A stretch of 64,000 nt of DNA, taken from contig CAKZKD010000005.1 of the NCBI GenBank assembly GCA_937121175.1, positions 1 through 64,000 of the forward strand, read 5' to 3'. Each line of letters opens with the position of its first letter. The stretch's first letter is position 1. Of the stretch, positions 60,031-63,930 are shown piece by piece. A program made the position numbers and the translations under genes. The notes below the pieces were generated by a model. That model saw only the letters and a program-made list of their open reading frames with translations, was not told the DNA's origin and did no database searches. The stretch is from an uncultured Flavobacteriales bacterium. Its GTDB lineage: Bacteria; Bacteroidota; Bacteroidia; Flavobacteriales_G; Salibacteraceae.

Positions 60031-60058
60031 AAAAAAAGCCCTTTAAAAAGGGCTTTTT
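60031..60058 (-). terminator. Intrinsic terminator of rpsT
   Basis: AAAAAGCCCTTT and AAAGGGCTTTTT form a stem with a very small loop, flanked by A- and T-runs, 24 bases after the rpsT stop on the minus strand. The arms are symmetrical, so it could work in both directions. Confidence 0.85.
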
Positions 60059-60081
60059 AAATTTGAATATTTTTTCTGTTA

Positions 60082-60333
60082 CTATAAAGCTGAAACTTTC
60101 TTTGAAAGTTTAGACTTCAAGTTAGCTGCTTTATTCGAATGAATAATATTGTTTTTAGCCAATTTGTCAATCATTGAAAATACTTTAGGAAGACTTGCAG
60201 AGGCTGCTTTTTTATCAGTCTCTTCTCTTAAATCACGAATAGCGTTACGTGTAGTTTTAAAGACGTAACGGTTACGTTCTCTACGTACTTTAATTTGTCT
60301 AATTCTTTTTAATGCTGACTTGTGATTTGCCAT
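60082..60333 (-). CDS. rpsT: 30S ribosomal protein S20
   Basis: The 83-residue, very basic helical protein is a structural part of the small ribosomal subunit. [21 protein letters not shown] and [19 protein letters not shown] are the family signatures. It lies 23 bases downstream of tRNA-Glu on the same strand, possibly in one transcript, and has a strong terminator. Confidence 0.97.
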
Positions 60334-60356
60334 ACTATCTTTTATTTAAAAAATTG

Positions 60357-60428
60357 TAGCCCATAGGAGAATCGAACTCCTGTTACCAGGATGAAAACCT
60401 GGCGTCCTAACCACTAGACGAATGGGCC
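60357..60428 (-). tRNA. tRNA-Glu (anticodon TTC)
   Basis: The minus strand folds as a 72-nt tRNA. GGCCCAT pairs with ATGGGCT (first pair G-U), the discriminator is A, CCAGG/CCTGG encloses TTTTCAT, and the T-loop is GTTCGATTC. The anticodon TTC is at 60393..60395. CCA is not encoded after the discriminator. rpsT follows closely downstream. Confidence 0.95.
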
Positions 60429-60603: not shown

Positions 60604-60621
60604 ATTGTACATTTGTACAAT
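60604..60621 (+). promoter_or_regulatory. Palindrome over the start of the NqrM-like gene
   Basis: ATTGTACA (60604..60611), TT, TGTACAAT (60614..60621) is a perfect inverted repeat that ends on the first two bases of the ATG. It also contains TACATTTG (60608..60615), a full match to the -7 consensus TAnnTTTG. If used, transcription would begin at or near the ATG and a repressor bound to the palindrome would block it. Confidence 0.45.
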
Positions 60622-60811
60622 GAAAGTTATTCTTCTATCTATTGGTTTACTTGGGCTCGGAATTGCCGGAATTGCAATTAAGATTTGGGCAAAGAAAGAT
60701 GGGAAATTCGCTGGCACATGTGCTTCCAACAATCCTGTATTAAACGAAGAGGGTCAGCCTTGCAGTTTTTGCGGGGCGCTGCCTGATGAACAATGCCAGA
60801 AGGAGGATTAA
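60620..60811 (+). CDS. Small membrane protein, NqrM-like
   Basis: The 63-residue protein has one N-terminal membrane helix (MKVILLSIGLLGLGIAGIAIKIW) and a short soluble tail with four cysteines: GTCASNNP, then CSFCGALPDEQC (C-x13-C-x2-C-x6-C). NqrM (DUF539) of gammaproteobacteria is also a single-helix protein with four essential cysteines and is needed to mature the Na+-NQR iron centre. Here the gene lies 3 bases from convergent apbE and next to nqrF. I infer that it is the Bacteroidota counterpart of NqrM. ATG at 60620 is preferred to TTG at 60605. A palindrome with a -7 box overlaps the start. Confidence 0.75.
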   Translation: MKVILLSIGLLGLGIAGIAIKIWAKKDGKFAGTCASNNPVLNEEGQPCSFCGALPDEQCQKED

Positions 60812-60813
60812 AC

Positions 60814-61920
60814 CTACTGTAAGTCAATCTCTAATCTATCTTCTACTCCTTTTGTTGTGAAGAATTTATACTCCCCTTTTTCGGAATAAATAAGAAAAGC
60901 ATCTAATGTTTTTCCATCCTCAGTACTCAAGAACCCAACGCTCTGTTCAAACCCCATAACCATAAATGCTGTTGCAAATGCATCTGCAGTTGCACAGTCA
61001 TCGGAAATAACAGTAGCACTTAGCAAACTATTTTTTGCAGGGTAACCTGTTTTGGGGTTTATGGTGTGATGAAACTTTACCCCATCTATGTCAGTAAACT
61101 TCCTATAGTTACCTGATGTAGCAATTGCTTTATCCTCTACCCTCAATTTTGCCTGTAAAGTCCTTTTCCCAACATCCTCAGTTGGCTTGTCAATTCCAAT
61201 CAACCAGTTTTCTCCTGCTGGGCGTTTGCCTTTAGCGTACATTTCTCCTCCTAGCTCAATAAGAAAAGATTTTAATCCTCGATACTGACAAAATTGGCTC
61301 AGCACATCAACCGAATACCCTTGAGCGATTGCATTAAAATCCAATTGCTGTTTACAAGCGTTCTGTAATAATTTAATAGCTGAACCTTTATCTGAACTTA
61401 GTAACAGACCATTCAAATCCAAGGTTCTTTCTCCTAACAATACGTTTATTGAATCCATTTTAGCACACTTCAAAATTCGAGAAACCTCTGAAGAATCAAT
61501 TTCTATATTATTCGAATTGTTTGCTCCTAAGCCATAATAGTCGAGCAAAGGTTTTACAGTTGGATTAAAAGCACCTTCAGTTGACCTAGAATAAATGTGC
61601 GACATTTCTAAATTCCGAATAAAGTGCCTATCCAGTAATACAGAATCTTGTCCATTGTTGAATTTGGAAATAATACTTTCCGAATTCCAGGTTGACATCG
61701 AAAAATCAATTTCAAGTAAAATGGAATCTATTTCTGCTTTGACCAACTCAATACTATCCGAATAATAGACTATTGAATAGGTAGTGCCTTGTGCCTCTCC
61801 TTTAATCGTCTTTCTCAGATTAGTTTTCTTCGCTAATAAAGGGGCTTCGTACTGGCAACTAACAACCAAAAACGCTAAACCCAGAGTAATACTAAAGTGG
61901 ACTATTCTTTTTATACACAT
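60814..61920 (-). CDS. apbE: FAD:protein FMN transferase ApbE
   Basis: ApbE attaches FMN covalently to Thr residues of NqrB and NqrC, activating Na+-NQR. The 368-residue protein is a lipoprotein (signal ending VVSC), so it acts at the periplasmic face. Its family motifs are GEAQGTTYSIVYY, FNAIAQGYSVDVL, ELGGEMYAKGKRP and HHTINPKTGYPAKNSL, with the C-terminal DDCATADAFATAFMVMG. It follows the nqr operon on the same strand, separated by a weak terminator, and converges with the NqrM-like gene. Confidence 0.95.
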   Translation of the reverse strand: MCIKRIVHFSITLGLAFLVVSCQYEAPLLAKKTNLRKTIKGEAQGTTYSIVYYSDSIELVKAEIDSILLEIDFSMSTWNSESIISKFNNGQDSVLLDRHFIRNLEMSHIYSRSTEGAFNPTVKPLLDYYGLGANNSNNIEIDSSEVSRILKCAKMDSINVLLGERTLDLNGLLLSSDKGSAIKLLQNACKQQLDFNAIAQGYSVDVLSQFCQYRGLKSFLIELGGEMYAKGKRPAGENWLIGIDKPTEDVGKRTLQAKLRVEDKAIATSGNYRKFTDIDGVKFHHTINPKTGYPAKNSLLSATVISDDCATADAFATAFMVMGFEQSVGFLSTEDGKTLDAFLIYSEKGEYKFFTTKGVEDRLEIDLQ

Positions 61921-61998: not shown

Positions 61999-63291
61999 TT
62001 ATCCTCCAAAATCATCAAAGGCCACATTCTCTGGAGGAACTCCCCAGTCATCGCACATTTTAAGAACTGCCTGATTCATCATTGGTGGTCCACAAAAATA
62101 AAATTCAATATCCTCTGGAGCATCATGTTTTGAAAGGTAGTTATCTATCACAGATTGGTGAACAAAGCCGACGAATCCATCACCTTCATCTTCCATGTCC
62201 TTCTTCACTTTCCAATTATCTTCTTCTAATGGTTCTGACAATACTAAATGAAACTTGAAGTTTGGAAAATCTTTTTCCAACGCGTAAAAATGATCTAAGT
62301 AGAATAATTCTCTTTTAGACCGCCCGCCATACCAATAGCTTACTTTTCTTCCCGTTTTAATGGTTCTAAATAGTTCATACAAATGAGAACGCATCGGCGC
62401 CATTCCAGCACCACCGCCTATGTACAACATTTCAGAATCGTTATCTTTAATAAAGAACTCTCCGTAAGGACCTGAAACAGTTACTTTATCACCTTCTTTA
62501 CAATTGAAAATATAAGAAGAAGCAACCCCAGGATTTACATCCATCCAATCGTTTTTATCTCTATCCCAAGGTGGTGTAGCAATACGCACATTCAACATGA
62601 TTCTTCTTCCTTCTGCAGGATAGGAAGCCATAGAATATGCACGTTCAACCAGCTCATCATTTTTCATGGTAAGTGGCCATAAATTGAATTTATCCCATTC
62701 TAATTTGAACTTATCTGGCTCTCCTGGATGTTCTTGCGGATGAGCAGTAATGTCCATTTCCTTAAAGTTGGTTACCGTTTTTGGAATTTCAATCTGAATA
62801 TAACCACCTGCTTTGTAGTCCATATCCTCAGGTAATTCAACAATAAACTCTTTGATGAATGAAGCAACATTGTAGTTAGACACCACGGTCGCTTCCCATT
62901 TCTTAATTCCAAAAATTTCTTCTGGAATTGAAATTTCCATGTTCTCTTTCACCTTTACTTGGCAACCAAGTCGATAATCTTCGGAAATTTCTTTTCTTGA
63001 AAAATGTGGTTCTTCAGTTGGTAGAATTGAACCACCTCCTTCATGAACTTGACAAGTACACTGAATACACGTTCCACCTCCGCCACAAGCAGAGGGTAAA
63101 AATATACCAGCGTTACCGAGAGTAGAAAGTAACGAACTTCCACCCTCAACCTCTATTTCTTTTTCTCCATTTATCTTAATCATAACTGGACCAGATGAAG
63201 ATAACTTAGCTTTTGCGAACAAAAGCAACGACACCAATAGAAGAGTAACTATTAAGAAAACAACTATGGCTGCTGTAAGCGTGATTCCCAT
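61999..63291 (-). CDS. nqrF: Na+-translocating NADH:quinone reductase subunit F
   Basis: NqrF is the entry point of the sodium-pumping NADH dehydrogenase. The 430-residue protein has an N-terminal membrane helix and a 2Fe-2S ferredoxin domain with Cys69, Cys75, Cys78 and Cys110 ([15 protein letters not shown]). A FAD domain follows (RAYSMASYP) and a NADH domain ([19 protein letters not shown]), ending with [12 protein letters not shown] and AFDDFGG. The length is normal. It lies 21 bases after nqrE, the last nqr gene. The complex moves electrons from NADH to quinone and pumps Na+ outward. Confidence 0.97.
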
Positions 63292-63312: not shown

Positions 63313-63930
63313 TTATAATTCGATTCCCATGAAACTCATGAATGCAATTCCCATAAGTCCAGTAATAATAAATGTAATTCCCAAACCTCTCAGCGGAGCT
63401 GGAACATGAGAATATTTAATTTTTTCTCTAATCGCTGCAATGGCAACAATTGCCAAAAACCAGCCAACTCCAGAGCCTAAACCAAATGAAGTGGCCTCAG
63501 CAATAGTCGCGTATTGTCTTTCTTGCATAAACAATGCACCACCCAATATTGAACAGTTCACAGCAATTAATGGCAAGAAAATACCCAAAGCACCGTAAAG
63601 CGCAGGAGCAAATTTTTCTACAATCATTTCAACCAATTGCACCATGGAAGCAATTACTGCAATGAACATGATAAAAGAAAGAAAACTTAAATCTACAGTT
63701 GCAAACTCACTTCCTAACCAAGAAAGTGCTCCCTCTTTCAACACATAATTTTCTAACAAGTAGTTAATGGGTACCGTAATTCCCAATACGAAAATCACGG
63801 CAGCTCCAAGACCAACTCCGGTTTTTACCGTTTTTGATACCGCCAAGTATGAACACATACCTAGGAAGTAGGCAAATATCATATTGTCTATGAATATGCC
63901 TTTTACAAATATGTTTACTAATTCAGTCAT
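63313..63930 (-). CDS. nqrE: Na+-translocating NADH:quinone reductase subunit E
   Basis: The 205-residue integral membrane subunit has six helices, with the NqrE/RnfA signature [23 protein letters not shown] near the start and [38 protein letters not shown] in the second half. Its inverted partner NqrD should lie directly upstream. NqrD and NqrE together hold an iron centre within the membrane. It lies between nqrD (end seen at 63952) and nqrF. Confidence 0.96.

Follow-up and report, generated by a model that had tools for sequence, protein, structure and literature searches.

At its far end, the window (the whole stretch of 64,000 nucleotides that was analysed) raises the question of what a 63-aa, four-cysteine membrane protein does beside apbE and the genes of a Na+-NQR. 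The first-pass annotation had taken it for a distant NqrM. In Vibrio cholerae, insertion of the intramembrane [2Fe-2S] cluster of NQR seems to require NqrM, according to the available portion of PMC12174285. The features on which our argument draws are as follows.

60604..60621, no strand: inverted repeat ATTGTACA-TT-TGTACAAT, that is ATTGTACATTTGTACAAT, covering the -7 box plus the A and T of the ATG
60608..60615, plus strand: -7 promoter box TACATTTG, separated from the ATG by 4 nt, with the A of the ATG (60620) as predicted +1
60620..60811, plus strand: coding sequence of the 63-aa NqrM-like protein, an open reading frame with its stop codon (60809-60811) included
60623..60691, plus strand: single membrane helix, codons 2-24 (AlphaFold2 helix 2-24)
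60719..60721, plus strand: Cys34, the first cysteine, in an F-x-G-T-C-A motif, invariant in alignments A1, A3 and A5
60761..60796, plus strand: Cys48, Cys51 and Cys59, a CxxCG knuckle and the last cysteine (sequence and alignments)
60814..61920, minus strand: apbE, FAD:protein FMN transferase (PF02424, E 3.3e-70)
61999..63291, minus strand: nqrF (TIGR01941, 573.8 bits)
63313..63930, minus strand: nqrE (TIGR01940, 305.7 bits)

The small gene is a real open reading frame whose product has one N-terminal helix (residues 2-24), in agreement with the earlier description. The four cysteines of the pattern C-x13-C-x2-C-x6-C first read from it are also present, but the last spacing is seven residues and not six: the translation gives a hydrophobic helix followed by C34-x13-C48-x2-C51-x7-C59. 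AlphaFold2 models the helix with mean pLDDT values of 89 (residues 1-10) and 88 (residues 11-20), and the prediction is poor in the tail (mean pLDDT 68.3, pTM 0.35). Across 157 orthologous loci, the 12 residues preceding G-T/S-C carry a mean net charge of +2.3, a basic stretch that points to a probable N-out/C-in topology.

The reported position beside apbE and nqr is likewise borne out, with apbE, nqrF and nqrE inside the window and nqrD, nqrC, nqrB and nqrA following nqrE just beyond its edge. The small gene and apbE are convergent, their open reading frames lying 2 nt apart. The genome holds one NqrE-type match at E≤1e-20, a second, RNF-type NqrE match being absent from it, and its NqrD and NqrE carry the motifs GICSAL/TNCIIMG and GMCSYL/VNCSILG, whose cysteines we take to be the cluster ligands. 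On the other side of the small gene, a tRNA-Glu (ttc) gene lies upstream on the opposite strand (60356-60428, minus). Farther out, overlapping inverted repeats AGCCCTTTAAAAAGGGCT/TTAAAAAGGGCTTTTTAA (60037-60060) lie just downstream of a minus-strand 83-aa open reading frame (60082-60333), presumably rpsT-like, and are perhaps its terminator.

Pfam and NCBIfam scans of the 63-aa protein gave no family over threshold and only sub-threshold matches, which we took as composition; the plasmid search with it returned no match at E≤0.01, and PDB sequence searches returned nothing better than E 0.04. The protein nevertheless belongs to a family. In a panel of 60 related genomes, our own included, 47 matched at E≤0.1 and 44 at E≤1.5e-5, including two fragments that lie at the end of a contig; the weak matches in G018, G045 and G051 (E 0.02-0.06) fell inside frames of 329-401 codons and were discarded. 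One relative, G010, has two equal-scoring gene copies (G010:C34:5878-6054 and G010:C12:139835-140011), either a true duplication or assembly redundancy.

We examined 171 loci (L004-L094 and L133-L212), of which 157 yielded a usable orthologue together with its 60 upstream nucleotides, corresponding to 153 distinct and 127 dereplicated sequences, 93 of the latter with the promoter box; one set of relatives was limited to the best 80 of 589. Four cysteines are present in 155 of the 157 and five in the other two, so that the protein is certainly no product of chance; the first four are spaced 13-2-(6 to 10) in 154, and the first is residue 34 in 126. Throughout a diverse set of 20 members, G32, C34, C48, C51 and G52 are invariant and F30, T33, P39, L41 and C59 nearly so. 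Judged by their listings, the open-access papers found on NqrM, DUF539 and Bacteroidetes NQR maturation do not describe this family, the primary NqrM papers, which may mention it, lying outside that search; the available portions of papers on the NQR of Prevotella and Bacteroides fragilis contain neither "apbE" nor "maturation".

What ties the family to NQR is its distribution. Our phylum panel comprised 296 Bacteroidota genomes of at least 95 completeness, our own included, 56 of which have NqrE over the cut-off. The family profile matched 46 genomes, 45 of them NqrE-positive; the remaining match, in G113, a genome with no NQR (E 0.009, 29 residues, 37-codon frame), was rejected as chance. 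With that fragment set aside, the family occurs in 45/56 NqrE-positive genomes vs 0/240 others (Fisher p 3.7e-43, uncorrected for kinship), so that within this Bacteroidota panel all 45 credible carriers are NqrE-positive and an NQR-only distribution holds. Where the only NqrE match is RNF-like and stays below the cut-off (21 genomes), the family is absent. The pattern is repeated within a single genus (g41), where G140, G210 and G341 carry both NQR and the family, and the NQR-negative genomes among those listed (G079, G083, G113, G124 and G198) are without a credible member.

Neighbourhood alone does not explain this link, for in 13 of the 45 genomes the family gene and nqrE share a contig but are separated by 36 kb or more. 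The two genes are within 10 kb of each other in 14 genomes and on different contigs in 18, where contig ends could hide linkage. The family and NQR thus travel together without having to be neighbours. An apbE or nqr gene was found near the family gene in 39 of 77 loci with mostly 1.5-kb flanks and in 18 of 76 with flanks of up to 4 kb, which is often but not always; where both apbE and the small gene were found, they are convergent in 59 of 61 loci.

The same co-occurrence would be expected if the protein stabilised the completed Bacteroidota NQR or served it as a small accessory subunit, with cysteines that bind Zn or Fe structurally, and the CxxCG knuckle does match zinc-ribbon families and rubredoxins, weakly and non-significantly. 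We consider such a role unlikely. Convergence with apbE makes the gene a separate transcription unit, and its distance from nqr in at least 13 of the 45 panel genomes would be unusual for a stoichiometric subunit. Two reviews, in the portions available, give NQR six subunits, and the helix and the position of the first cysteine equal those of NqrM.

A promoter is predicted at the start of the small gene. In Flavobacterium psychrophilum, the -7 box occupies positions -12 to -5, and leaderless transcripts make up 5.5% of the 890 mRNAs mapped (PMC9723704, available portion); with a box at this distance, a 4-nt spacer would make the A of the ATG the +1. Of the 153 distinct orthologues, 115 have a TAnnTT[TC]G box no more than 30 nt from the start (shuffled mean 5.8, maximum 13); in 36 of them its distance to the ATG is exactly 4 nt (shuffled mean 0.19, maximum 2). 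The other spacings are 5 nt in 5 orthologues, 14-20 nt in 68 and 22-27 nt in 6, no box being found within 30 nt in 38, and no -33 TTG at a fixed distance is evident across the orthologues. Our genome as a whole shows no excess of TANNTTTGN4ATG (81 occurrences vs 70 of the reversed pattern), and none of the 61 window open reading frames of at least 100 aa has the box at spacing 4. The conserved 4-nt spacing lends support to the leaderless start proposed earlier, and in this clade the small gene probably has a housekeeping-type promoter of its own that yields a leaderless mRNA.

The first-pass annotation had further described an 18-base perfect palindrome that contains the TAnnTTTG box and overlaps the ATG, and had suggested control by a repressor, perhaps iron- or redox-sensing. 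The box does lie inside the repeat, which extends over the A and T of the start codon, but the repeat is not perfect over its length: two 8-bp arms flank a TT centre, so that 16 of the 18 bases pair. That it serves as an operator on the leaderless promoter is, in our judgement, quite improbable. Its position exactly over the -7 box is suggestive, and inverted repeats near this box recur among the 93 dereplicated boxed orthologues: arms of at least 8 in 4 vs 0.24 shuffled (maximum 4 of 300 shuffles), of at least 7 in 5 vs 0.93 (maximum 5) and of at least 6 in 9 vs 3.0 (maximum 9). These shuffles kept base composition only, however, the box and start codon already fix one side of several pairs, and the four palindromes with the longest arms differ in sequence. 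Because three same-genus loci lack the palindrome and the genome holds a single perfect copy of it (three further places have one mismatch, and the reversed-pattern control gave 1), a repressor regulon is unsupported. The window contains 16 inverted repeats with arms of at least 8 and gaps of 0-4, overlaps counted, vs 8.0 ± 2.6 in 10 first-order simulations, and ATTGTACATTTGTACAAT is weakly at best beyond chance; it seems to be a peculiarity of this locus. Palindromes unrelated to it overlie the gene's -7 box upstream of the orthologue L203 of Cellulophaga baltica, with 16-bp arms, and in family f16 (L080-L082), where TAAATTTGCGCAAATTTA is present in two of three loci and a near copy in the third.

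We compared the family with ten true NqrM proteins from plasmid-collection records, eight annotated as nqrM, one as hypothetical and one unannotated, all of which match PF04400 (formerly DUF539) at E≤1. In the alphaproteobacterial sequences C33 is followed by a CxxC pair and a distant cysteine, in the gammaproteobacterial ones by CDCPEPC. In V. harveyi NqrM, loss of the first cysteine is reported to abolish function, with milder effects at the other cysteines. Several features are shared. The 63-aa protein is short, with a single N-terminal membrane helix (2-24), a basic stretch and an [FI]-x-G-[TS]-C motif whose first cysteine stands just after the helix, at residue 33 or 34, followed by more cysteines; Cys34 corresponds to C33 of the fetched NqrM proteins in alignment A2, and in the records and the window examined the gene lies near apbE or nqrF. 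Other features set the two apart. The family has GTCA-S-x-N/S-P-x-L and CxxCG where NqrM has GSCGG and CDCPEPC (gamma) or C-x2-C plus a far cysteine (alpha), and its gene has its own promoter and converges on apbE, whereas the fetched NqrM genes share the orientation of apbE or nqrF. Neither the window protein nor any of the 20 diverse members matches the PF04400 or NCBIfam NqrM models at E≤1, which leaves the family short of the PF04400 gathering cut-off of 22 bits. The proposed likeness to NqrM is therefore upheld by architecture, gene neighbourhood and co-occurrence with NQR, but it does not extend to Pfam membership.

Profile comparison gave a divided answer. With hhalign, the ten NqrM proteins aligned to the diverse Bacteroidota set at 94.7% (E 6e-8, 53 columns), the first three cysteines being in register with the alphaproteobacterial NqrM row; against the narrower set A1 the figure was 63.5%. 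When the NqrM tail columns were shuffled, the score was still 34.0 ± 2.1 (maximum 44.5 of 200) vs the real 40.5, and the tails alone scored 11.1 vs 9.1 ± 2.3 shuffled (maximum 20.0), which is not significant; the match is carried mostly by the helix. A CcoS control profile, built from 8 of 27 fetched loci, reached 1.1% vs NqrM and 65.6% vs the 63-aa family over 20 columns. Given the helix-driven score and this control, we regard shared ancestry of the family and NqrM as likely, not proven, and keep the family outside PF04400.

CcoS/FixS and FeoB-associated cysteine-rich membrane proteins, which are small and have a single TM segment, are linked to metal enzymes, as the 63-aa protein may be. 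A role in iron handling or in another membrane redox enzyme in the style of these proteins, with life style accounting for the co-occurrence with NQR, is very unlikely: beyond that 20-column alignment, its matches to FixS/CcoS and FeoB_associated are weak and sub-threshold, the CcoS sequences compared are without the four cysteines, CcoS is a separate protein with its own gene in our genome, and presence of the family tracks NQR within one genus and is accompanied by the apbE/nqrF neighbourhood.

A true NqrM elsewhere in the genome, which the first-pass annotation had named as evidence against its reading, was not found, the best PF04400 score being 15.8 bits. The PF04400 matches in our genome lie inside large frames of 1478 and 2839 codons, the 15.8-bit one in the 1478-codon frame. 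PF04400 was over its cut-off in 0/296 panel genomes, in a search without a positive control (0/14 control genomes matched at E≤0.01); a match in G337, in a 68-codon frame antisense to a long open reading frame, was rejected.

Eleven NqrE-positive panel genomes are without the 63-aa family at threshold, and the same cysteine pattern, scanned for in seven of their nqr loci, was not found. A looser scan of four nqr loci from family f35 showed in each a protein of 68-75 aa, with a single helix followed by a CCGGGxC...C tail, located as follows.

L068:5652-5861, minus strand: CCGGG-type protein, near nqr and directly beside apbE
L069:12304-12555, plus strand: CCGGG-type protein, near nqr and directly beside apbE
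L073:12560-12775, plus strand: CCGGG-type protein, near nqr, apbE not found
L074:5537-5740, minus strand: CCGGG-type protein, near nqr and directly beside apbE

At E≤0.001, the CCGGG profile matched 8 of the 296 genomes, precisely the eight f35 exceptions, all NQR-positive and all with the gene within 3.6 kb of nqrE. This form (alignment A4) shares the architecture and genomic niche of the 63-aa family and is mutually exclusive with it in the panel. It differs in its CCGGGxC motif and Gly/His-rich tail, and the alignment between the two spans helix columns only; against NqrM, hhalign gave it 91%, and 84.5% and 88% on reprocessed columns.

Two further exceptions, G286 and G294 of family f30, whose nqr neighbourhood we take to read like that of Bacteroides, encode a distant family homologue (E 7.7e-8 and 6e-6) with a single cysteine.

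L125:1447-1725 (G286) and L126:1453-1725 (G294): one-Cys distant homologues, NGHVSGN replacing GTCASN

Searched back over the panel, this homologue matched 11 genomes, all NQR-positive: itself in two, the known family locus in eight and, in G290, a different place with an internal stop. The last exception, G300 (nqr contig L070, contamination 3%), is NQR-positive, and none of the three forms was found in it. Together, 45 + 8 + 2 = 55 of the 56 NQR genomes carry one of the three forms. The one-Cys form, represented by only two genomes, is striking because the NQR of B. fragilis is active (PMC7002350, available portion), and it offers a naturally occurring variant with which to probe the cysteines.

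Taken together, the architecture, the co-occurrence in the panel with NQR and not with RNF alone, the frequent pairing with apbE and the lack of any Pfam NqrM found lead us to regard the 63-aa protein as probably the Bacteroidota counterpart of NqrM, a dedicated Na+-NQR assembly factor. That it performs the NqrM step in Bacteroidota is the economical reading. We infer a mechanism in which the helix would anchor the protein in the inner membrane with the cysteine tail in the cytoplasm, and the four cysteines, one by the membrane, two in the CxxCG knuckle and the last, would bind iron or a nascent cluster. This would then pass to the cysteines that hold the intramembrane [2Fe-2S] between NqrD and NqrE.

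A published phylogeny, in the portion available (PMC4014512), places the origin of NQR in the Chlorobi/Bacteroidetes. It is conceivable, and we offer it tentatively, that this line has no fewer than three forms of the assembly factor (GTC-CxxC-C, CCGGG and one-Cys Bacteroides-like) and that the proteobacterial NqrM is one derived branch. If the Bacteroides-like one-Cys form works, a cysteine-based model of iron delivery cannot be general, and the natural cysteine variants allow the role of these residues to be asked. Na+-NQR is functional in Bacteroides of the gut, and its potential as a drug target in pathogens is under discussion, according to the available portions of PMC7002350 and PMC12682751. 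As Pfam recognises no NqrM in the Bacteroidota panel, heterologous production and assembly models miss a part, and the 63-aa protein is a strong candidate for this missing NQR assembly part in Bacteroidota.
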